From Alphaproteobacteria bacterium (GTDB taxonomy: Bacteria > Pseudomonadota > Alphaproteobacteria > Paracaedibacterales > CAIULA01): a DNA stretch of 64,000 nucleotides. The stretch spans positions 1-64,000 of the forward strand of contig JAPLOP010000037.1 of the NCBI GenBank assembly GCA_026400645.1, given 5' to 3'. Of this stretch, positions 25,416-38,378 are shown in pieces. A model generated the notes under the pieces. That model was given only the letters and a program-made list of their open reading frames with translations, had not been told where the DNA came from and made no database searches. Each line of letters starts with the position of its first letter. The stretch's first letter is position 1. Both the position numbers and the translations under genes were made by a program.

Positions 25416-27983
25416 ATGAGCAAGCAAAGAATTAGTCTAGAATCAATCGATTTCCCCAATGCAAATCTTGATAAAGTTTTTGATCAAAACACAGGCAGGG
25501 CAATCTATACCGACCGATGGCTGCGGGATCGTTTAATTTATGCGGCAATTCTTGGCAAATACACAGACGATGCTATTTCCCCTGAAAATTATGGGGCATT
25601 TTCTTTTTTGGGTGCGTCCATTTATGATTCTGTTGCACGGTGTTTCGATGACTATGGGCGCCTGCCAATCTCATCGGATGAATTGCGGCTTTCATTGGAT
25701 CGATTTGTTGTTGCCGGCACCTTAAAAGGGGAGGGGGATATTTTTTGCCTGGCGATTTCACCTCGACTGTTGGCTTCATTTTCTGACAATGTTGATTTTA
25801 TCGTGCGCGATCTTAAGGCGTCCATCGAGCAAGGGGATGATCCTGTTCAACAGTGTCTTGAGGACTATGGCCACCCGACCAACCTGACTGATTTGTATCC
25901 GATTGAATCACGATACGGATTGATTCGCGCGATTCATTTATTGGACTCCTCGGAACAAAATCGTGTGGCGCTTGTTGTGAAAAATCTAAGATCATCGCAC
26001 CTTTATAAAAATTCCTTGATCAATTCGATTGATTTACAACTCAACGAGGATAGTCACGCGTCGTGGGTTGCTGCCATCACGCCACACCTAAAGGATGCAA
26101 CCATTTATGACTTAAGTGCTGAATTTAGCGAAGCAGTTGGTGGCCTTGGGCGGGTTCAGCAATATCATATTGGGTGGATGCGTCGCCTTGGGGCAAATGT
26201 TATTGCCTGCGAACCACAATATAAATTCCTTAGAAATGTTAAGGTTGACCCGGATGATTCCGATGAAATCGCCTTTGATCCATCCCTGTTAAGTTACCCA
26301 ACAACCGTCATCAGTAAAGAAACATATCAATTTTCATTTGGTGGAAAAGAAATCCCCATGGAGGTTTCGCGTTGTCTCAATGAAAAGGGGATTTCGGTTC
26401 TGCAGTTTTCGGACGTTCCAGATCAAAATGGGGCCTACCCTTTTGGATATTCTTTCATGAGGAACGTTTATAAATACGCACAGGATCATACGCGGCACTC
26501 TCTCGAGGCGCCCGCCCATGATAACCTTCCAACGTGGATTCAGTTTGGGGCATTTTTTGCCAAGGCATTGTGGGTTTATATTCGCAACACAGAATATGCC
26601 CGTTATCAGGAATCCCAACAACAGGGAAACCCCTATCATCCCGCCATCATTAATGCAAACGAAGCCCAAACGTTACTGGTCCCCGTTTTTCGTTTGATTG
26701 ACTACCGTGATGCTGTAAAACGCGGCGACACAGATTATGCAACATTTTTGCGAAACTTTATGATTTGCGGAACGACCCATACCTATAAAAACCGGGGGAT
26801 TTTTGATGAAATAAAGTCCGGTGCTTACAATAAAGAAAAGCTTTATGTTTTGGGCATACCCGAAGAATTTCATTATTTATTTGCTAGCTATCCGTTAACC
26901 TCTGCAGAAACCGAGATCCCCTTTGTGACCGGAAATTCCTTTATGGATGTGACAAGTGCTGGTCTAAAAACGGCAGAGATTGCCAAGGGCGTTTCGGCAT
27001 TGCATGCGAAGGAGGTTCACGCCTGGGATCCAACCGTGAAAAAGATTTATGGCATTGCGAATGGTGATGCCATCGAAGATTCAGCGAAATATTTCGTTGC
27101 TTATCTTGGGGAATTGCAAAATCGGGGGGATGTTCCAAATGATGTAGTGTATCCCTATATTCCATCGGGGGTTGTAAGGGCCGTTAAACGTTTTGCCAAA
27201 GAAAATCTAACATTAAAGAATCGTTCGCTGAAATTGAATCCCGATCAATTGGTTGTTGCCTATAGTGGGCGCTGGGTCGAGGAAAAGCGCTGCGCCGTTG
27301 CATTCAATTTCCTAACCGAGGGTCGGGATCTTATTCTGGATGATTCCAACACCGTCATTCGCCTTGTAAAGGCAGGCATTCAGGTTGTCATTTATGGCAA
27401 TGTTCAGGATTACGAACCCTATATAGCGGAAAAAGCCCGGGAGCTTCAAGCCTACATAAAAAATAATTTAAAGGACTGGGCGATAAATTCCCTAAATCCA
27501 CTGGGACAATTTATTTTTGTTCCGAATTTTAGTTTGGATGATCAGCTTCGTCTTTTACCGGCTGTGGATATTCAAATACAATGTTCGCAGCGGGCGACGG
27601 GCGCGTCCGAATATACGGAATCCAATGTGACGGCAAATGGGGGGCTGTCTATGGGGTCATCCTATCACGAGGGAATCATTCAAAAGCACGGGATTCCCCT
27701 AAACTTTGGTGTGACAGGATGGGGAAATTCAGTGGTGCCCGTGCTTGAAACGCCATCAAGCTATTTTGATCAAATTCTGAAAATAGACCAGTTGCGCAAG
27801 CAGTCGCTGCTTTATGACTATCAATCAAGCAGCATTTTAACTAGCTTGGCTCTTAATGCCCAACAAACAGCCGCTGAATATTTGCGCCTTTGGGAAAAGC
27901 ATTATCACCCATCATCACCTTTTTATTACCAGAAGTTTGATTTGCCTTTGGTGGAGAGCCAAAATAAGCTTGCAAATGAGTAA
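25416..27983 (+). CDS. GT-B glucan phosphorylase/synthase-like protein lacking the PLP lysine
   Basis: An 855-residue protein. The first ~230 residues match nothing I recognise. Then come GT-B elements like those of glycogen synthase and alpha-glucan phosphorylase: EFSEAVGGLGRVQQYHIGWM (GGLG at 242-245), a THTYKNRGIFDE segment, a KGVSALHAKEV stretch followed by YGIANGDAI, VAYSGRWVEEKR, VQDYEPYI and FVPNFSLDDQLRLLPAVDIQI. Where phosphorylases have EASGTSGMKAAxNG, this protein has GASEYTESNVTANG, so the lysine that binds PLP is Asn737. A phosphorylase reaction is therefore unlikely, and a sugar-nucleotide or other glucan transferase is possible. It lies upstream of the dideoxysugar operon, in the same direction, after a 195-nt gap. 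The real substrate is unknown. Confidence 0.7.
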   Translation: MSKQRISLESIDFPNANLDKVFDQNTGRAIYTDRWLRDRLIYAAILGKYTDDAISPENYGAFSFLGASIYDSVARCFDDYGRLPISSDELRLSLDRFVVAGTLKGEGDIFCLAISPRLLASFSDNVDFIVRDLKASIEQGDDPVQQCLEDYGHPTNLTDLYPIESRYGLIRAIHLLDSSEQNRVALVVKNLRSSHLYKNSLINSIDLQLNEDSHASWVAAITPHLKDATIYDLSAEFSEAVGGLGRVQQYHIGWMRRLGANVIACEPQYKFLRNVKVDPDDSDEIAFDPSLLSYPTTVISKETYQFSFGGKEIPMEVSRCLNEKGISVLQFSDVPDQNGAYPFGYSFMRNVYKYAQDHTRHSLEAPAHDNLPTWIQFGAFFAKALWVYIRNTEYARYQESQQQGNPYHPAIINANEAQTLLVPVFRLIDYRDAVKRGDTDYATFLRNFMICGTTHTYKNRGIFDEIKSGAYNKEKLYVLGIPEEFHYLFASYPLTSAETEIPFVTGNSFMDVTSAGLKTAEIAKGVSALHAKEVHAWDPTVKKIYGIANGDAIEDSAKYFVAYLGELQNRGDVPNDVVYPYIPSGVVRAVKRFAKENLTLKNRSLKLNPDQLVVAYSGRWVEEKRCAVAFNFLTEGRDLILDDSNTVIRLVKAGIQVVIYGNVQDYEPYIAEKARELQAYIKNNLKDWAINSLNPLGQFIFVPNFSLDDQLRLLPAVDIQIQCSQRATGASEYTESNVTANGGLSMGSSYHEGIIQKHGIPLNFGVTGWGNSVVPVLETPSSYFDQILKIDQLRKQSLLYDYQSSSILTSLALNAQQTAAEYLRLWEKHYHPSSPFYYQKFDLPLVESQNKLANE

Positions 27984-28198: not shown

Positions 28199-29293
28199 AT
28201 GCAAATAAATGATCTCTCATCAAAAATATCAAATAATCGCGCCTTTATAAGAGCGGCCATTGATAGAGTTATCGATAGAGGCTGGGTGATCCTTGGACCA
28301 GAGGTTAAACAATTTGAAACCAGTTTTGCGGCTTATCTGGGTGCACACCATTGTATCAGTGTTGCCAATGGAACGGATGCGATTGAGTTGGCTTTAAAAG
28401 CTCTTGAGGTCAACAAAGGGGACTGCGTAGCAACGGTTGCCAACGCAGGTATGTATACAACAACCGCCTTGTTGGCGATTGGTGCTTTGCCATTTTTTCT
28501 TGATGTAGACAAAATGACGCACAATACAACATTGGCCGAAGTTGAGCGCGCCATTAAAGAGGGAGCAAAGGCCGTCGTTGTTACACATCTTTATGGATTG
28601 GCCGTTCCAGAAATCGAAAATATTGCTTTGCTGTGTCGTCAAAACGGGGTTCCTCTTTTGGAGGATTGTGCACAGGCACATGGTGCAATGATGAATGGAA
28701 AGCGCGTTGGTACGTTTGGCGATGCCTCTAGTTTCAGCTTTTATCCAACAAAAAATCTTGGCGCACTTGGCGATGGCGGCGCTATCGTGACCAACAGTTC
28801 TGCTGTCGCTGAAAAAATTTCCCGTCTTCGTCAATATGGATGGACGGCAAAATATCGGGTCGAGATCCCTGGTGCACGTAATAGTCGGCTCGATGAAATG
28901 CAGGCTGCTATTCTTTTGGCTTTTCTTCCAAGTCTTGATTCCAGCAACGATCGGCGACGTGAAGTTGCAAAACAGTATAATGAAAAAATACATCATCCAA
29001 AAATCGATGTACCTGGACACCACGGAAACGGGTATGTTGCGCACTTGTACGTTGTGCGTAGTCAAGATCGGGACAGTCTGCGCGCCCATTTGCAAAGTTT
29101 AGATATTGCATCTGATGTGCATTATCCAATTCCTGATTACAGACAGCCGGTATTTGGGGGCCACTTTTCGGGGACACACCTAGAAAACACCGACTGCTTG
29201 GCTAGTGAAGTATTGACGTTGCCGTGCTATCCGGAAATGACCGACAGAGAGGTTGATCAGGTTATTTCGGCTGTCAATGCGTGGCAATCATGA
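28199..29293 (+). CDS. DegT/DnrJ/EryC1-family sugar aminotransferase (FdtB/QdtB type)
   Basis: PLP-dependent aminotransferase expected to put an amino group on C3 of a dTDP-3-keto-6-deoxyhexose. It has WVILGPEVKQFETSFAAYLG, ISVANGTDAIELAL, LYGLAVPEIE, LLEDCAQAHGA and the PLP-lysine motif SFSFYPTKNLGALGDGGAIV (Lys185). A C-terminal HLYVVR and VHYPIPDYRQP complete the fold. It is the first gene of an eight-gene plus-strand operon. Its stop overlaps the next start (ATGA). The role comes from the nearby ketoisomerase/acetyltransferase and RmlAB. Confidence 0.88.
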   Translation: MQINDLSSKISNNRAFIRAAIDRVIDRGWVILGPEVKQFETSFAAYLGAHHCISVANGTDAIELALKALEVNKGDCVATVANAGMYTTTALLAIGALPFFLDVDKMTHNTTLAEVERAIKEGAKAVVVTHLYGLAVPEIENIALLCRQNGVPLLEDCAQAHGAMMNGKRVGTFGDASSFSFYPTKNLGALGDGGAIVTNSSAVAEKISRLRQYGWTAKYRVEIPGARNSRLDEMQAAILLAFLPSLDSSNDRRREVAKQYNEKIHHPKIDVPGHHGNGYVAHLYVVRSQDRDSLRAHLQSLDIASDVHYPIPDYRQPVFGGHFSGTHLENTDCLASEVLTLPCYPEMTDREVDQVISAVNAWQS

Positions 29294-30222
29294 AATTCTC
29301 TGTCATTATTCCGGTTTATAAAAACCAAGGGTCGATCCCACGATTGCTTCAAACATTGACATCTATGAGCCATGAATTGAACGGCCCCATGGAAGTGGTG
29401 TTTGTGGTTGATGGTAGTCCTGATGATTCTTTTGTATTGCTTCGTGATGCACTTGATGGGCTGGATTTTTCGGCACAGCTGTTGGTTCACTCCAGAAATT
29501 TTGGGTCCTTCCCTGCTATACGTTCGGGATTGATAGCGGCTCGTGGTCAGTATTTTGGCGTAATGGCGGCCGATTTACAGGAACCCCCAGATCTGCTAAT
29601 TTCCTTCTTTAAGGCTCTTGATGCCGATGAATGTGATGTAACTATTGGAACGCGAATAAGTCGCAATGATCCATTTATGTCCCGACTGGCATCGGGTGTA
29701 TTCTGGAAATTATACCGACGCCTGGTTGTTCACGACATGCCAGAGGGGGGTGTTGATATTTTTGGATGCAATCAACTGTTTCGCGATCAACTGGTTCGGC
29801 TGGAAGAATCTCGGTCCTCTCTAATAGCTCTTATCTTTTGGTTGGGATTTCGACGCAAGCTTATTGGCTACGAACGCCTTGCCCGCCAAGAGGGTGTCTC
29901 AGCCTGGACACTCAAAAAGAAGATTGATTTCATGATGGATAGTGTCTTTGCTTTTACCGATTACCCCATTCGATTGTTAACCAAGATTGGAATAATTGGA
30001 TGTGCACTATCTGTTGTTTTTGCAGCGATTGTATTTTCTGGGCGTCTATTGGGGGCAATCACTGTTCCGGGTTATGCGGCGATCATGATTGCTGTGTTTT
30101 TTTTCGGAACGCTCAATTTGTTTGGGCTTGGTTTAATTGGAACCTATGCTTGGCGTGGCTATGAAAACAGCAAGCAACGACCGCTATCTGTTGTGTCAAT
30201 GAGATTTGAAAACCACAAATGA
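29290..30222 (+). CDS. GtrB/DPM1-like polyprenyl-phosphate glycosyltransferase (GT2)
   Basis: Likely transfers a sugar from a nucleotide to undecaprenyl phosphate on the inner face of the membrane. The GT2 fold is shown by FSVIIPVYKNQGSIPRLL, VVFVVDGSPDDSF, HSRNFGSFPAIRSGLIAARG and VMAADLQEPPDLL. Two membrane helices at about residues 230-290 match GtrB-type proteins. The start is ATG 29290, overlapping the previous stop by 4 nt. The longer reading from GTG 29281 would run inside the aminotransferase end. Its sugar is probably the amino-dideoxyhexose made by this operon. Confidence 0.85.
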   Translation: MKFSVIIPVYKNQGSIPRLLQTLTSMSHELNGPMEVVFVVDGSPDDSFVLLRDALDGLDFSAQLLVHSRNFGSFPAIRSGLIAARGQYFGVMAADLQEPPDLLISFFKALDADECDVTIGTRISRNDPFMSRLASGVFWKLYRRLVVHDMPEGGVDIFGCNQLFRDQLVRLEESRSSLIALIFWLGFRRKLIGYERLARQEGVSAWTLKKKIDFMMDSVFAFTDYPIRLLTKIGIIGCALSVVFAAIVFSGRLLGAITVPGYAAIMIAVFFFGTLNLFGLGLIGTYAWRGYENSKQRPLSVVSMRFENHK

Positions 30223-30239
30223 AGCGTACGAGATAAACG

Positions 30240-31550
30240 ATGATAGAATTAAAAAAAATTCACCCGACATTTATTGTTGGATTTTCGTTTTTATTAATTA
30301 TTGGGTTTTATTTTTTTATTGAGCAAATATTAAGGCCTGTTGGTGGTGATGCTCCCTCTTATATGGAGATAGCCAGGGCATACAACTCAAAAAGTATCGT
30401 TGCTGCGCAAACTGACTCACATAGGACATTCGCTTATCCATGGATATTGTCATTGCTCATAAAGCTGTCTGGTATTGCCAATTTTCCAGATATATTGCTC
30501 ATATTCGTGTTTCAAACGACGGCGTATTTGTTTGCAACGCTTCTGATAGTCTCCTCGGTTTCGAACCATTCATCCAAGTTGGCATCGATATTATTTGTGG
30601 CGCTTTGCTTTAATATTTATGTCATTCCGTATCACGGCATAACCCTTACAGACTCATTATATACGTCCATTTCCATAATGATCTTCGGTATTTTGATTCG
30701 TCTGGAATGCTTATCTGCCCCAGGAAATAACGATCTCGTTAAGTGGATTTTTTATTTAATATTTCTTTTAAGCTGGGGGATTGTCATTCGCCCGGCTGCA
30801 ATTTGGCTTTCTGTGCCAGTTTTTTACTGTATAGTTCGACTGTTTACGAAGGGTTATGTTAAAATAACTGATCTAATTTTGGTTTTAATTACAGGAGCAG
30901 TCCCATTATATATTCAAATATGCTTAAATGTTTTGAATTACAAGGTAATTAGCTTTCTTCCAGCTGCAAATTTAGGGGGAATGCAAATACAGTGGGGTAT
31001 TGAAAATGTTAAATACGGCACTTGGATGGGTAATGGCGGTATTGGTAATTACTACTCATCGAAGTCGATAATAGGAACTGTAACAGACCCAAGTATTAGG
31101 TGGTATTTTGGCAATCCATCCAAGGCCATAAGGTTGTTGAGTTTGAAAATGGTTGGGGCATTCGATTTTGATTACCTTATGCCCTATCCATATCGAAAAT
31201 TAGCCCTTGGATGGATCCCTTCATTTTTATCATTTTCAATACTTTGGTTTGGTTCCTTGGGTGTCGTTTTTCATCTTTTTACTGGAAAATTAAGGGCACT
31301 GGGATCTCGTTTTATGCCATTGATTATTTTTCTGAGCTGGTCATCTGTTGCATTGATATCAGCGTTGGAGCTAAGATTTACACTGCCTCTTCTTAGTTAT
31401 TTTATTGTTGTTGGGAGTGTTTTTATATTTTACCTGCTAAATGGTAGCAAAAAATGGATCTGTATTTCTTTTATGGGATGCATTATTTCTATGCCAATTT
31501 TTTATATTACGGCTAAATTTATCAGATCTCTTAGTAGTGTAATTTCTTAG
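30240..31550 (+). CDS. Polytopic GT-C-like membrane protein
   Basis: A 436-residue protein with about ten hydrophobic segments. After the first helix comes GGDAPSYMEIARAY, the acidic first periplasmic loop expected of GT-C glycosyltransferases (GT39/ArnT-like) that use polyprenyl-linked sugars. HRTFAYPWILSLL and GIVIRPAAIWLSV fit that superfamily. It starts 17 nt after the GT2 gene. The DNA is visibly more A+T-rich than the upstream housekeeping genes. Acceptor unknown. Confidence 0.65.
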   Translation: MIELKKIHPTFIVGFSFLLIIGFYFFIEQILRPVGGDAPSYMEIARAYNSKSIVAAQTDSHRTFAYPWILSLLIKLSGIANFPDILLIFVFQTTAYLFATLLIVSSVSNHSSKLASILFVALCFNIYVIPYHGITLTDSLYTSISIMIFGILIRLECLSAPGNNDLVKWIFYLIFLLSWGIVIRPAAIWLSVPVFYCIVRLFTKGYVKITDLILVLITGAVPLYIQICLNVLNYKVISFLPAANLGGMQIQWGIENVKYGTWMGNGGIGNYYSSKSIIGTVTDPSIRWYFGNPSKAIRLLSLKMVGAFDFDYLMPYPYRKLALGWIPSFLSFSILWFGSLGVVFHLFTGKLRALGSRFMPLIIFLSWSSVALISALELRFTLPLLSYFIVVGSVFIFYLLNGSKKWICISFMGCIISMPIFYITAKFIRSLSSVIS

Positions 31551-31613
31551 TAATAACAAAATCACTGCGATTCTGAATTCGATTCATTTTTTATGAAATG
31601 TCAAGGAATATAA

Positions 31614-32585
31614 ATGTTACCAACGATCAAAATTCACAATACTGCCGATGTCCAGACAACCAATATCGGATCCAGAACAACAATCTGGCAATTTGTATCC
31701 ATTCTTTCGGGGGCACAAATAGGTTCCGATGTTAATATTTGCGCCCATTGTTTTATTGAAAACGATGTGATCGTTGGAAACCGAACAACAATTAAGTGCG
31801 GTGTTTATCTGTGGGATGGCATTCGTTTGGGGGATGATGTTTTTGTGGGGCCAAACGTTACTTTTAGCAATGATAAATACCCACGTTCAAAAATTTATCC
31901 AGATTCCTTTCTTGAAACCATCGTCCAAGACGAAGCCTCTATCGGTGCTGGGGCTATATTATTGCCAGGAATTACCATAGGTCGCGGAGCAATGATTGGT
32001 GCTGGCGCGGTGGTTACCAAATCCGTACCGCCCTATGCCGTTGTGGTTGGCAATCCAGCAAAAATTGTTGATTATACTAAAAAAACAACATTGGCAGACG
32101 ACGTAGCCCCCTCAAAACGAATCGGCATAGGTGGTGTGACCCTGTGCCGCCTTAAACGCATCAATGACAAGCGCGGAGATCTTTCGGTTGGGGAATTTCC
32201 AACCGACATTCCATTCAACCCCAAGCGGTATTTTCTGGTTTTTAATGTTCCAGATAATGAAACCCGCGGTGAACACGCCCATCATGCGTGTCATCAATTT
32301 TTAATTTGCGTAAAGGGGAGCTGTGTGGTGACCGTTGATGACGGTGAATCCCGCCAGGAAATCTTGCTTGAATCACCCGACGTAGGTATTTATTTGCCCC
32401 CCCTAATATGGGGCGTCCAGAGAAAATACTCCAACGACGCTGTTTTGCTTGTATTTACATCAGACTATTATGATGTAGATGACTATATTCGAAATTATGC
32501 TGAATTCGTTGAGATTGCTCAGACGAAAAACCGGAAGTTAGATGTTGTGTTCATCCCCCAAGACGATCTAAGATCTAAAAATTAG
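31614..32585 (+). CDS. Bifunctional dTDP-sugar N-acetyltransferase/3,4-ketoisomerase (WxcM-like)
   Basis: Two catalytic domains in one chain of 323 residues. Residues 1-150 form a left-handed beta-helix acetyltransferase with hexapeptide repeats ([39 protein letters not shown]). Residues 165-310 form a cupin with [20 protein letters not shown] (His221, His223, His224), the motif of the FdtA/WxcM 3,4-ketoisomerases. The same fusion is known in WxcM and FdtD. It would convert dTDP-4-keto-6-deoxyglucose to a 3-keto sugar and later acetylate the 3-amino product. The stereochemistry, Fuc3NAc or Qui3NAc, cannot be told from sequence by eye. Confidence 0.88.
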
Positions 32586-32609
32586 TTTTCTGTCAAAGCG
32601 CGACAAATA

Positions 32610-34451
32610 GTGAATCTTACCCCAAACAAAAGTCATCAGGATTTTTCTGGTCCGTTAAATTTTTTCACCGTATTGCGCAGTGAATGGAGGTGGTGTCTTT
32701 TTGGGGCCATTGTTTCATTTGTGCTAGCCAGCGTTTTAGTGACTGGATTTCCCCGGGGTTTAGTGCCAAATCTTGCATATCCTTACATCTATGGTGGGGA
32801 TGGTCTAAGTCATCTGTGGATGATACGGTGCATTATGGAGGGGTGGATATTTGAAAATTCCCGAAACGGATTCCCTTTTGGATCTGGTTTTCTGGATTAT
32901 CCGGGATCGGACTTTGGCAATCTTCTTGTTTTAAAGTTGATTGGTTTTTTTTCCGGGGAAACCCAGTCGGTCTTTAACTTATTTTTCTTGTTGAGCTTTC
33001 CGGTGACGTTTATTACGTCCTTTTGTGTGCTGAAATCAATTGGTTTGATTCGTTGGTATGCTCTTGCCGCAGCCGCACTTTTCACATTTTTGCCGTTTCA
33101 TTTTCAAAGAATACCCCACCTTTTTTATACGTGGTATTTTGTTGTTCCGTTATTTTTTTATGCAGCCTTTTTTATTGCCTATAAAACGAATAACGAAACG
33201 GTTTATGGTGGAAATTGGAAAAAGAATCTTTTTAAATTCATTTTTTTCATTAGCCTTGCGTTGTTTGGAGTTTATTATGCATTTTTTGGAGCCATAGTCT
33301 TTGCTGTTGCGGGACTTGCTGGCTGGGGCAGAAGTGGCGATATTTCCTGCATAAAGCAGTCCGCGATCGCCGTTGCCATTGTATCTTTCGGTGTATTAAT
33401 AAATGTCGCCCCTAGTATTGTTTATAAGTGTATGAATGGATCGAATCCAGAAGTGGCAAGAAGGAGCTCTGCAGAGGCAGAAATTCATGGACTTAAATTG
33501 ATCCAGATGGTCATTCCGCGCGCCGACCATCGGATAAAGCTTTTTTCTAAAATAACGCAAAAATACCAAGTGGGTCGCCCGCTTGTCCATGAGAACGCAA
33601 CCGCTACCCTTGGAATCGTAGGGGCGTCTGGATTTTGTTTCCTTGGATTGGTTCTTTTGCTTAAACTATCGGGTCGATCAGTTGATTCACGTCTGGTGTT
33701 TTTGTCGATGATTGTTTATGTTCTTTTCTTGTTTGGTACAATTGGTGGCCTTGGGGCGATATTTTCTTTTTTCATTTCGCCCCTTATGCGCGGATGGAAC
33801 CGAATTAGCGTTTTTATCGGGTTTGGTTCAATTGCTGCATTTTTTTTCATACTTCAGGATAGGATTGAACGTTTCGGCTCTCGGTCAAAATCAACAGGAG
33901 CATTCCTGGTATCGGCCGGTATTGTGCTTTTGTTGGGATTATTCGATCAAACTGTTACCAATTCTATGCCTGGTGATTCGACCAAAAGCGCCTATAAATT
34001 GGATAAAGATTTTATTGAGCAGATTGAACGGTCTGTTCCGAAAGGAAGCGCCATCTACCAATTGCCGTACATACCATTTCCAGAGGCCCCGATACTTCAT
34101 CGATTGGATGAATATTGCCTAACGGCGGGTTTTATCCATTCAAAATCGCTGAATTGGAGTTACGGCGGAATAAGGGGTCGCAAGGGTGACCTTTTCTATA
34201 AAGCCCTTTCCCAAAAACCAACCGCAGAACAAATTAATACAATACGAAAAATGGGTTTTTCTGGGATTTATATTGATCGGCGCGGTTTTGCAGACAATGC
34301 GGATGCGCTCATTAATGAACTGACTGCGCTGCTTAAGGCTGAACCAACCCTAAAAAGGGCGGATGGCGAGGTTGCTTTCTTTCGATTGGAACCAATACTT
34401 TATGCCTCGGCTGAAAATACACCTTCTATGAGAAATGGATTCCATTCATGA
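32610..34451 (+). CDS. Large polytopic GT-C-like (YfhO-related) membrane protein
   Basis: A 613-residue protein with about twelve membrane segments. YPYIYGGDGLSHLWMIRCIM is an acidic first loop of GT-C type, and the following FQRIPHLFYTWYFVVPLFFY and the C-terminal soluble domain (about 465-600, with GFSGIYIDRRGFADNADAL) resemble YfhO and related periplasmic sugar transferases. Start GTG 32610 is the only plausible one close to the previous gene; no clear Shine-Dalgarno is seen. Its end overlaps the next gene by 4 nt. Confidence 0.65.
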   Translation: MNLTPNKSHQDFSGPLNFFTVLRSEWRWCLFGAIVSFVLASVLVTGFPRGLVPNLAYPYIYGGDGLSHLWMIRCIMEGWIFENSRNGFPFGSGFLDYPGSDFGNLLVLKLIGFFSGETQSVFNLFFLLSFPVTFITSFCVLKSIGLIRWYALAAAALFTFLPFHFQRIPHLFYTWYFVVPLFFYAAFFIAYKTNNETVYGGNWKKNLFKFIFFISLALFGVYYAFFGAIVFAVAGLAGWGRSGDISCIKQSAIAVAIVSFGVLINVAPSIVYKCMNGSNPEVARRSSAEAEIHGLKLIQMVIPRADHRIKLFSKITQKYQVGRPLVHENATATLGIVGASGFCFLGLVLLLKLSGRSVDSRLVFLSMIVYVLFLFGTIGGLGAIFSFFISPLMRGWNRISVFIGFGSIAAFFFILQDRIERFGSRSKSTGAFLVSAGIVLLLGLFDQTVTNSMPGDSTKSAYKLDKDFIEQIERSVPKGSAIYQLPYIPFPEAPILHRLDEYCLTAGFIHSKSLNWSYGGIRGRKGDLFYKALSQKPTAEQINTIRKMGFSGIYIDRRGFADNADALINELTALLKAEPTLKRADGEVAFFRLEPILYASAENTPSMRNGFHS

Positions 34452-36415
34452 TAAACAAATGCCTTACAATCTCCTTTCTTAAATCACTATCATTCTATGC
34501 ATTTCTTGTTGTATCCATTTTTCTGATTTCATTTTATATGATTCATTACGATGATTTTTACTTTGGTTCTGATGCCGCTTGTCAAGTTTTGTTCGCAAAT
34601 GAGGTGTTTGAAACGGGGCAGTTTTTTCCAAAAGATTTTTATTTTGGAAACGGCGATTTTCATATTTTTCAAAAATATCTTGCTATTTTTCCGTTTCTTT
34701 ATTTTTTTAAACCTGGGTATGTGCTGTATACGCTAGCGGAATTTGTGGCTACTTTCTTCTTTTTGCACAGTATTTGGCTTTTGACATCTCTTACAGAGGC
34801 CTCAGCACGAAAAAGATTGATCTTTATTGCTTTCATTTGTTCTTGTATTTCCGCACCCCTGAGGGATAGTTTGTTTGGTCTTGGAATTTATTCTGCCTAT
34901 GTATCAGTTATGTTTTACATGATGTATTACAATTATCTTTATATGGTCTGCGAACAAAGTTCAAAAACATTAATGAAATTATGTTTTTTATTCTTAATAT
35001 CATTTATTTCCAATCCAAAAAGGGCATTTTTTTATAATGTCATTCCTGTGACATGTGCCTCATTTTTTTATTGCTATGTCTTGCAAAATATTAAAAAAGA
35101 TATTGCGCTCAGATGTCTAAAAATTCTAACCATGGTAGCTGCTGTTGGATCCGGTCTGTACTTTTACTTCCTGCACAAAGTTTACATGGTGGGGACAGTA
35201 GAATTTTTTCCACTTAATTCATTAAGAGTTATATTGAACAATATCCTTGATTTGCGTTTTTACGGACAATACATATATGATGTTCCATGTTTCTTACTAT
35301 CAATAATAGGTATCATATCATTTTATATTGTTTGCATTAATAGTTTATTTCACAGAAAAGACAATGGTTTATTTTATATTTTATTATGCTCGGTAGTATC
35401 CTTTCTAAGCTCTCTGTCCTTTTTGGTTTTAAAACTGCCCGCGGATATTGCTCGAACTAGTTTTAGATACCTTGATATCTCCTTTGTGTTGTTATTGGTG
35501 ATATTTTTCTTCAGTCCTCGCAAAAAAGCCTTTCTGAAGTTAGCTTATTATATCGCTATGGCCTGTTTTATTCTTAATTTCTACATGTTTGCACAGATCA
35601 CAAAAAATTATGACGCTGTTATTGATCGATCAAAACAAAATGTATTATCCGATTTCTTAAGTAAAAATGATTTAAAATATGGATATGGAGCATACGAAAA
35701 TGCAAACGCTGTTACTGCTTTAAGTAATAATGATGTAAAATTAAGATCTATATTATTTTATTCAAATCGTATAATTCCGTTTCGCTGGCTTTCGTCTGAG
35801 CGATGGTATAGGCAGGATGCTTGGGTTGGAAAAACGTTTCTAGCGCTAACGGCGGAAAAAGCTCATGTCATTGATTGGAATATTTTGGAAAAATATATCG
35901 GAAAACCAGAAAAAGAATTAGAATGCGGACAATTTAAAATTTTCATTTTTCCCGAAAACATAGCAAAATATTTGCCAGGATGGGACATGACTTATTTGAA
36001 TAAAGCAAGTTTTCTTGCAAGCAAGGATAAAAATCATACTGCGGGGACTTATGTCGAAACATATCGCGATCTTGGCCCTGCGATAGTTGCCCAACCCAAG
36101 GAAATTGGTTATTTGCATTTTGGACCCTATGTGGACGTTGAACCCGGGGAATATGAGATTGAGTTTGATATACTGGCCGACAGTCACGACGCACAAGATG
36201 TTCTAAAGATAGACGTCGTAACCAATGCATCAACCCCACTGAAAGAAGAAAGCATGAAAGAATGCAATGGTATAAAACGCCTGCGAGTTAAGCTCGATCA
36301 GAGAATGACGCTTGAATTTCGTGTGTATTCATTGGGTTTGGTTCCTGTCGTTTTCAAAAGCGTTAGCATTCAAAATGTAAAAGGATTAAACAAAAAGGAG
36401 CAAACTTTACCATGA
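34448..36415 (+). CDS. Polytopic membrane protein with C-terminal soluble beta-domain
   Basis: The 655-residue protein is very rich in Phe, Ile and Lys and has about eleven hydrophobic segments up to residue 390. The first loop reads YDDFYFGSDAACQVLFANEV, again a GT-C-like acidic loop. The last 110 residues are soluble: GYLHFGPYVDVEPGEYEIEF and LRVKLDQRMTLEFRVYSLG look like a beta-sandwich of carbohydrate-binding type. The gene is markedly A+T-rich, which hints at recent transfer. It overlaps both neighbours by 4 nt (ATGA), so it is firmly in the operon. Function not recognised beyond a likely GT-C transferase. Confidence 0.6.
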   Translation: MINKCLTISFLKSLSFYAFLVVSIFLISFYMIHYDDFYFGSDAACQVLFANEVFETGQFFPKDFYFGNGDFHIFQKYLAIFPFLYFFKPGYVLYTLAEFVATFFFLHSIWLLTSLTEASARKRLIFIAFICSCISAPLRDSLFGLGIYSAYVSVMFYMMYYNYLYMVCEQSSKTLMKLCFLFLISFISNPKRAFFYNVIPVTCASFFYCYVLQNIKKDIALRCLKILTMVAAVGSGLYFYFLHKVYMVGTVEFFPLNSLRVILNNILDLRFYGQYIYDVPCFLLSIIGIISFYIVCINSLFHRKDNGLFYILLCSVVSFLSSLSFLVLKLPADIARTSFRYLDISFVLLLVIFFFSPRKKAFLKLAYYIAMACFILNFYMFAQITKNYDAVIDRSKQNVLSDFLSKNDLKYGYGAYENANAVTALSNNDVKLRSILFYSNRIIPFRWLSSERWYRQDAWVGKTFLALTAEKAHVIDWNILEKYIGKPEKELECGQFKIFIFPENIAKYLPGWDMTYLNKASFLASKDKNHTAGTYVETYRDLGPAIVAQPKEIGYLHFGPYVDVEPGEYEIEFDILADSHDAQDVLKIDVVTNASTPLKEESMKECNGIKRLRVKLDQRMTLEFRVYSLGLVPVVFKSVSIQNVKGLNKKEQTLP

Positions 36416-37473
36416 TTTTTGTAACTGGTGGCGCGGGGTTTATTGGTTCCAATTTTATTTTGGAATGGTTTTCAAAAACAACCGAAGCCCTTTTAAATTT
36501 AGATAACTTGACCTACGCAGGAAATCTTGCAAACCTGGAATCTGTAAACGATAAGGCACACTATCATTTTGTCAAGGGGGATATTAATGATCGCACTCTC
36601 TTGAATGCTCTTTTTGATGCTCATAAACCTCGTGCGCTTATTAATTTTGCTGCAGAAAGCCACGTAGACAGATCCATTCACGGGCCTGCTATATTTATCA
36701 AAACAAACATCGAGGGAACATTTGCATTACTAGAGACGGCCAAAGAGTATTGGAGTTCCTTGGCGGCGGATGATAGGGAAAAATTCCGTTTTTTACATGT
36801 TTCAACCGATGAAGTTTATGGATCCCTGGACGAAGATGCTCCGCCATTTTCTGAGACACATCCCTATCAACCAAACAGTCCCTATTCGGCCAGCAAGGCT
36901 GCTAGCGATCATTTAGTGCGTGCATGGCATCATACTTATGGATTTCCAGTTTTAACGACGAATTGTTCAAATAATTATGGGCCCTACCAATTTCCTGAAA
37001 AGTTAATTCCCTTGACCATTGCGCGTGCTTTGCAGAATAAAAATATTCCCATTTATGGTGATGGAAAAAATATTCGCGATTGGCTGTATGTTGGGGATCA
37101 CTGTAATGCCATTATGGTTGCATTGAACGAGGGAAAAGTTGGCGAGACATATAATATTGGCGGTTGGAATGAAATCAAAAACATTGATATCGTAACAACG
37201 ATTTGTGATCTGCTGGACGAACTAAGGCCAGACGCCCTTGGGCCCTATAAGCGGCTCATTACGTTCATACAGGATCGCCCTGGACATGATCGTCGATATG
37301 CAATTAACGCAACAAAAATCCACAAAGACCTTGGTTGGCATCCACAGGAAACGTTTTATACAGGCATCAGAAAAACCGTTGAATGGTACCTAAGCAACCA
37401 AGACTGGGTGAAAAATATTGAAAGCGGGAGCTATCAGAATTGGATCCAGAAAAACTATAGCAATTGTTTGTAG
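36412..37473 (+). CDS. rfbB: dTDP-glucose 4,6-dehydratase
   Basis: Makes dTDP-4-keto-6-deoxyglucose, the branch point for deoxysugars. The Rossmann motif [11 protein letters not shown] starts at residue 5. The active site is STDEVYG (Thr132, Asp133, Glu134) plus YSASK (Tyr158, Lys162). [15 protein letters not shown] and [13 protein letters not shown] are typical of RmlB. Length 353. It overlaps the preceding gene by 4 nt and precedes rfbA by 14 nt. rmlC and rmlD are not present, so the product is not routed to rhamnose here. Confidence 0.95.
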
Positions 37474-37487
37474 GGGAAATTTTTGAG

Positions 37488-38378
37488 ATGAAAAAACGTA
37501 AAGGCATTATATTGGCAGGCGGATCCGGTACCAGATTGCATCCCCTGACCACTGTTGTTTCAAAACAATTATTGCCAATTTATGATAAGCCTATGATTTA
37601 TTATCCGCTGTCAACCCTGATGCTGGCTGGAATTCGGGATATTCTTATCATTTCAACGCCCCATGATATGCCTCAGTTTAAAGAATTACTGGGAGACGGA
37701 TCCAAATGGGGGCTTAACTTTGAATATATCGTTCAACCTTCTCCGGATGGTTTGGCGCAAGCCTTTATTTTGGGCGAAGATTTCTTGGAAGGTGGTCCAT
37801 CGGCCCTCATTTTGGGTGACAACCTGTTTTATGGCAGCAGCATCCAAAGTATACTCCATCGTTCATCCGCAAAGGAAAGTGGTGCAACAATATTCGCTTA
37901 TGCTGTTCACGATCCGGAACGATACGGCGTTGTGCAATTTGATTCCCAAAACAAAGTTATTAATATCGAGGAAAAACCAAAAAAACCGCTATCGCGCTAT
38001 GCAGTAACGGGTCTTTATTTTTATGATGAACACGTCGTTGAAATAGCCAAGTCTGTTAGGCCCTCTGAACGGGGTGAATTGGAAATCACAGATATCAATA
38101 ATGAATATCTGCGACAATCTAATTTGTCAGTAGAGATCTTTGGGCGGGGATATACATGGCTTGATACGGGTACACACCAAGCCATGCTAGAGGCATCCCA
38201 ATTCATCGCAACAATACAAAATCGCCAAGGATTTCAAATTGCAAACCCAGAGGAAATTGCATGGCGTCAAGGGTGGATTTCTCTCGATCAGCTAAAAGAT
38301 CTTGGGGGGATTTTAATGAAGTCTTTATATGGAAAATACCTATTGGATTTGGAATCCTCACCAAAGGGCTCTAGCTGA
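37488..38378 (+). CDS. rfbA: Glucose-1-phosphate thymidylyltransferase
   Basis: First step of the dTDP-sugar pathway, giving dTDP-glucose. It has [75 protein letters not shown] and [18 protein letters not shown] 37488 is chosen because AGGGGAA lies about 9 nt upstream (37472-37478). A longer TTG/ATG reading would overlap the end of rfbB. Length 296 is normal. Last gene of the operon. Confidence 0.95.

Follow-up and report, generated by a model that had tools for sequence, protein, structure and literature searches.

The 855-residue protein P0001, encoded in the 64,000-nucleotide stretch of alphaproteobacterial DNA analysed here (the window), probably represents a new branch, free of the cofactor, within a known enzyme superfamily, as judged from its sequence. 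It is very likely homologous to the superfamily of GT35 phosphorylases and GT5 glycogen synthases. In alignments with GT35, an asparagine takes the place of the PLP-binding lysine and a glycine takes that of the glucose-binding glutamate.

25416-27983, + strand: orphan protein, putatively of GT-B type, P0001, 855 aa; ORF with start, stop and length confirmed
25416-26099, + strand: N-terminal region, ~228 residues, without recognisable family; nothing meaningful matched in Pfam, NCBIfam or PDB
26139-26153, + strand: GGLGR (residues 242-246), glycine-rich loop, compare GT35 GGLGRL and GT5 GGLGD; by alignment
26652-26672, + strand: NANEAQT (413-419), counterpart of GT5 HAxDWxT and GT35 LNDTHP; by tblastn match to a phage-record GlgA and pairwise alignment
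26772-26804, + strand: TTHTYKNRGIF (453-463), counterpart of GT35 TNHT and GT5 TIHN; by E-INS-i alignment with GT35 and by GlgA alignment
27054-27074, + strand: IANGDAI (547-553), counterpart of GT35 TNG and GT5 NGID; by MAFFT and profile alignments
27267-27287, + strand: GRWVEEK (618-624), predicted Arg-x4-Lys pair binding phosphate or diphosphate; by GT35 and GlgA alignments
27516-27644, + strand: FVPNF...TANGG (701-743), GT35-like block without gaps; by alignments and Pfam, NCBIfam and PDB matches
28199-38378, + strand: surface-polysaccharide neighbours (DegT, GT2, FdtA/hexapeptide, GDP_Man_Dehyd-type dehydratase, sugar nucleotidyltransferase and proteins of no family)

The reading frame is open throughout, and a homologue search of its own 1.32 Mb genome gives a single match. 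Codon usage is host-like, on par with the neighbouring housekeeping genes of the window. The ORF looks like a maintained gene rather than recent debris; an open frame with host-like codon usage in a genome of this size argues for a selected function. On the same two properties, a frameshifted pseudogene and recent foreign DNA were both rejected as its origin. AlphaFold2 models of the protein, alone or together with 18 GT35 sequences from viral contigs, have a pLDDT of 31-33.

Database searches with the whole protein find nothing relevant in Pfam, TIGR02094 in NCBIfam (E 0.16) and the glycogen phosphorylase 2c4m in the PDB (E 0.49). The family signal is sharper when the protein is cut into pieces for these searches. 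For the C-terminal piece, the sole Pfam match is PF00343 Phosphorylase (E 0.02-0.03), the sole NCBIfam matches are GT35 models (E 0.012-0.2), and 8 of the 11 PDB matches are glucan phosphorylases; these span residues 698-748, with 2c4m beginning slightly earlier. Tblastn against 7.3 Gb of plasmids yields two matches at E<=10, both annotated glgP and covering residues 690-798. Five matches come from phage records, of which two are GT35 and one is the GT5 glycogen synthase GlgA, over residues 407-548. No match in Pfam, NCBIfam, the PDB, plasmids or phages is significant by itself, and the GT35 matches are not independent of one another. All curated GT35 cut-offs are missed: PF00343 scores 13.6 bits (cut-off 27), TIGR02093 13.5 (552.9) and TIGR02094 10.7 (191.7). 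A strong similarity to a characterised family, sought as evidence against the preliminary description of this DNA, is not seen. Homology is nevertheless favoured, because chance matches would not cluster on two related families. The GT5 model TIGR02095 is absent from the NCBIfam matches at E<=10. No GT3 profile is among the Pfam matches, and the GT3 E-x7-E positions read Gly729 and Asn737. Weak matches to OST48, sulfakinin, G-alpha and thioredoxin (E 0.025 to 0.93) were taken as chance.

Shuffled sequences provide a control on the homology. By hhalign, the single sequence scores 36.8 against an alignment of TIGR02094-type GT35 (best of 100 shuffles 27.3), 39.4 against classical GT35 (36.8) and 38.0 against GT5 (27.1). 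Smith-Waterman scores against 14 classical GT35 proteins average 64.7; shuffles give 42.5 +/- 2.4, with a top of 50.1. Against GT5 and TIGR02094-type GT35 the Smith-Waterman score lies about three standard deviations above the shuffles, within the range of the best of them. Global alignment gives 84 identities to invariant GT35 columns, at the edge of the shuffled range (maximum 84), so the GT35/GT5 signal is regional and not full length; a 13-column identity count gives 5 of 13, a value that many shuffles reach. The C-terminal part is nearest to classical GT35 by alignment; the middle appears to resemble GT5 more than GT35, a point that had been overlooked.

The preliminary description located the ORF and its motifs correctly, and its grouping of the protein with GT-B phosphorylases and synthases, by the segment order of GT35 and GT5, is supported at the sequence level by these profile and Smith-Waterman scores. 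The profile comparison that it suggested holds up as far as hhalign against shuffles is concerned, and reaches no curated cut-off. It had also called the first 230 residues unfamiliar, and they indeed match no Pfam, NCBIfam or PDB family.

GT35 phosphorylases use the phosphate of PLP for acid/base catalysis, and the PLP-binding lysine is K646 in E. coli MalP (PMC11046441). In the protein described here, residues 698-750 form a 53-residue block that aligns with GT35 without a gap, with the spacing of PNY, D, EAS and NG kept; FVPNFSLDD occupies residues 701-709 and TESNVTANGG residues 734-743. Within this block, GT35 E-A-S-G-T-x-x-M-K reads G-A-S-E-Y-T-E-S-N. The lysine position is Asn737 (codon AAT, 27624-27626), as first proposed, and the phmmer, hhalign and MAFFT alignments all agree on it. 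The glucose-binding glutamate (Glu672 of rabbit GP), eight residues before the lysine, is Gly729; this second loss had not been recognised. Both residues are present in 84 of 84 GT35 blocks, a partly circular count as the blocks were chosen by that motif. Literature searches of open-licence papers found no GT35 protein lacking the PLP lysine. It is extremely improbable that the protein is an ordinary GT35 phosphorylase whose lysine has been misaligned. The GT35-like C-terminal block would fit such a protein; however, the alignment there is gapless, no lysine occurs anywhere in residues 698-756 of the translation, and 30 GT35 loci fetched by family profile and read with looser patterns retain the lysine of EASGT-x-x-x-K at the site.

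Other superfamily motifs are kept. GGLGR (GGLG being residues 242-245) matches GT35 column for column in MAFFT, in full-length E-INS-i and in most modes with trimmed sequences. THT lies at residues 454-456 and ANG at 548-550, within ANGDAI (548-553). In pairwise alignment with GlgA, the catalytic histidine of GT5 (HAxDW) is Asn413. R619 and K624 align with the arginine and second lysine of GT35 KRIHEYK and with the R-x4-K of GlgA; the first lysine of GT35 KR-x4-K is Gly618. Such an Arg/Lys pair is common to the GT-B superfamily, and it is present in both the GlgA and the GT35 sequences compared here.

The preliminary description suggested that the protein may represent a family; this is not supported by the genomes sampled, as no homologue is found in 42 genomes from the order, 385 from the class and 398 from the phylum (overlapping samples), or in 8 by locus. 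Nor is one found in 267 genomes from the phylum of a Spirosoma genome, 263 from that of a Gastranaerophilales genome and 250 from that of a Verrucomicrobia genome. The sampled genomes in which none was found are thus alphaproteobacterial or belong to Bacteroidota, Cyanobacteriota or Verrucomicrobiota. Tblastn finds no homologue in plasmids or phages, and peptide patterns find none in viral and genome contigs. Pattern scans covering about 85,000 species find none either. The sparse DNA pattern N-[FY]-x12-D-x16-E-x-N-x3-NG matches 42 loci in genomes and 3 in viral contigs, all of them unrelated; a THT-motif pattern gives no viral matches, and a GGLG-motif pattern gives 16 viral loci, none convincing as a relative by tblastn. 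One viral locus picked up by peptide pattern (L002) lies in a phage tape-measure-like gene but on its wrong strand, and matched by chance. Since the searches are samples and patterns without a positive control, a sparse family may exist.

The polysaccharide genes lie downstream on the same strand and start after a 215 bp gap. Their GC3 is 0.31-0.40, compared with 0.43 for the ORF. Given the gap and the different GC3, it is not clear that the ORF shares an operon with the sugar genes, and these are treated as context. The gene on the upstream side (549 aa) is transcribed divergently, and by eye we take it to encode an RNase J-type hydrolase. In the polysaccharide region, 31614-32585 encodes a hexapeptide acetyltransferase fused to an FdtA/WxcM-type sugar isomerase domain, which suggests that the surface glycan contains a 3-acetamido-3,6-dideoxyhexose. 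Three large proteins there (30240-31550, 32610-34451 and 34448-36415) have no Pfam family; the first looks membrane-embedded by eye. The genes at 30240 and 34448 have a GC of 0.36 and 0.34, far below that of the window.

Elsewhere in the genome there is a compact glgX-glgB-glgC-glgA cluster (L119:11147-18717, contig C27), also missed by the preliminary description. It directly adjoins the type VI secretion baseplate gene TssE. There is no glgP near it, and no GT35 is detected in the genome by TIGR02094 or PF00343; TIGR02094 is matched in none of the 42 genomes of the order. The cell thus has genes for glycogen synthesis, and the only GT35-like protein found in its genome is one without the PLP lysine. 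A functional tie between the ORF and the GlgXBCA pathway may exist.

GT35 genes of other kinds were seen in passing. At least 120 viral contigs (IMG/VR) have a KRIHEYKR-encoding stretch, and a long classical glycogen phosphorylase ORF is present in 61 of the 80 viral loci listed (L120-L199). These 61 ORFs, putatively viral, are each at least ~70% identical to one reference copy. Two genomes have GT35 matches of atypical extent, covering TIGR02094 positions 18-517 (G430:C32:64450-66024 and G515:C2:126931-128508, the latter within a 1263-residue open frame). Both genomes also carry ordinary GT35 matches; the atypical ones are possibly a separate GT35 subgroup.

With the PLP lysine lost, the classical phosphorylase mechanism should be unavailable. 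The Arg/Lys pair common to the superfamily is kept, which makes nucleotide-sugar-dependent retaining transfer the most economical reading. The protein is tentatively regarded, with a little under even confidence, as a PLP-independent retaining glycosyltransferase that branches deeply within GT-B. It would be a divergent member of the GT35/GT5 superfamily, in which a unique N-terminal region of ~228 residues precedes the two domains of a GT-B protein. The GGLGR loop and R619/K624 would hold the diphosphate of the nucleotide sugar where GT35 holds the substrate phosphate and the PLP phosphate; the acceptor of the sugar would be a glucan or a surface glycan. The adjoining sugar-nucleotide genes count towards a transferase. 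Beyond the PLP lysine, the loss of the glutamate common to GT35 and GT5 (Gly729) and of the GT5 histidine (Asn413) could mean a dead active site. Such a pseudoenzyme, kept for glucan binding, regulation or as a scaffold, for example on the GlgXBCA pathway, is an unlikely but serious alternative; several catalytic positions are altered together (Asn737 among them) and a glycogen operon is present, but the retention of R619/K624, GGLGR, THT and ANG is unexpected if the whole active site decays.

Phosphorylases of family GT4 are not known to use PLP. By analogy with the trehalose phosphorylase among them, a retaining GT-B phosphorylase (PMC8950772), the protein might be an alpha-glucan phosphorylase that needs no PLP and supplies the missing GlgP step in a genome encoding GlgX, GlgB, GlgC and GlgA and no recognisable GT35. 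This is improbable, given that the PLP lysine and the glucose-binding glutamate are both gone, that the ORF is distant from the glg operon and that amylases or MalQ could stand in for GlgP. Much the same low probability is given to the broader proposal of a founder of a PLP-free family between GT35 and GT5, which would carry out glucan phosphorolysis or some other new cofactor-free reaction and replace GlgP in a glycogen-making bacterium of reduced genome. The small genome, the TssE gene near the glg operon and the unfamiliar N-terminal region could also fit a glycosyltransferase effector sent into cells of a host or a competitor, the N-terminal region being its delivery part; this is a slim prospect, as no secretion signal or effector domain is matched in Pfam or NCBIfam and no T6SS gene was identified adjoining the ORF among the neighbours scanned. 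A natural GT35 relative without the lysine would reveal which role the scaffold plays once its cofactor is gone. It could bear on how PLP-dependent phosphorylases arose from, or reverted to, nucleotide-sugar transferases, and would hint at how a bacterium with GlgXBCA and no detectable GlgP uses its glycogen.

Among known systems, the GT4 trehalose phosphorylase is a precedent for a retaining phosphorylase outside GT35 (PMC8950772); no sequence match to it was found. The protein resembles GT5 glycogen synthase GlgA (TIGR02095) in its middle region, where NANEAQTLLVPVF is similar to GlgA HANDWHTALVPVF and THTYKNRGIF to GlgA TIHNxxxQGxx, and both have R-x4-K. It differs from GlgA by Asn413 in place of the catalytic histidine, by the absence of the K-x-GGL lysine and of an E377-type glutamate, by the lack of a TIGR02095 match, and by a C-terminal spacing that is of GT35 type. 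GT35 itself is described as PLP-dependent, and its characterised members as alpha-1,4-glucan phosphorylases only (PMC8950772, PMC11046441). With GT35 (PF00343, TIGR02093, TIGR02094) the protein shares the gapless C-terminal FVPNF...D...S...TxAS...NGxLxxG, the GGLGR loop, THT, NG and Arg-x4-Lys. It departs from GT35 in its scores, which are below every cut-off, in its unique N-terminal region, and in having Asn737 for the PLP lysine, Gly729 for the glutamate (rabbit GP 672) and Gly618 for the first lysine.
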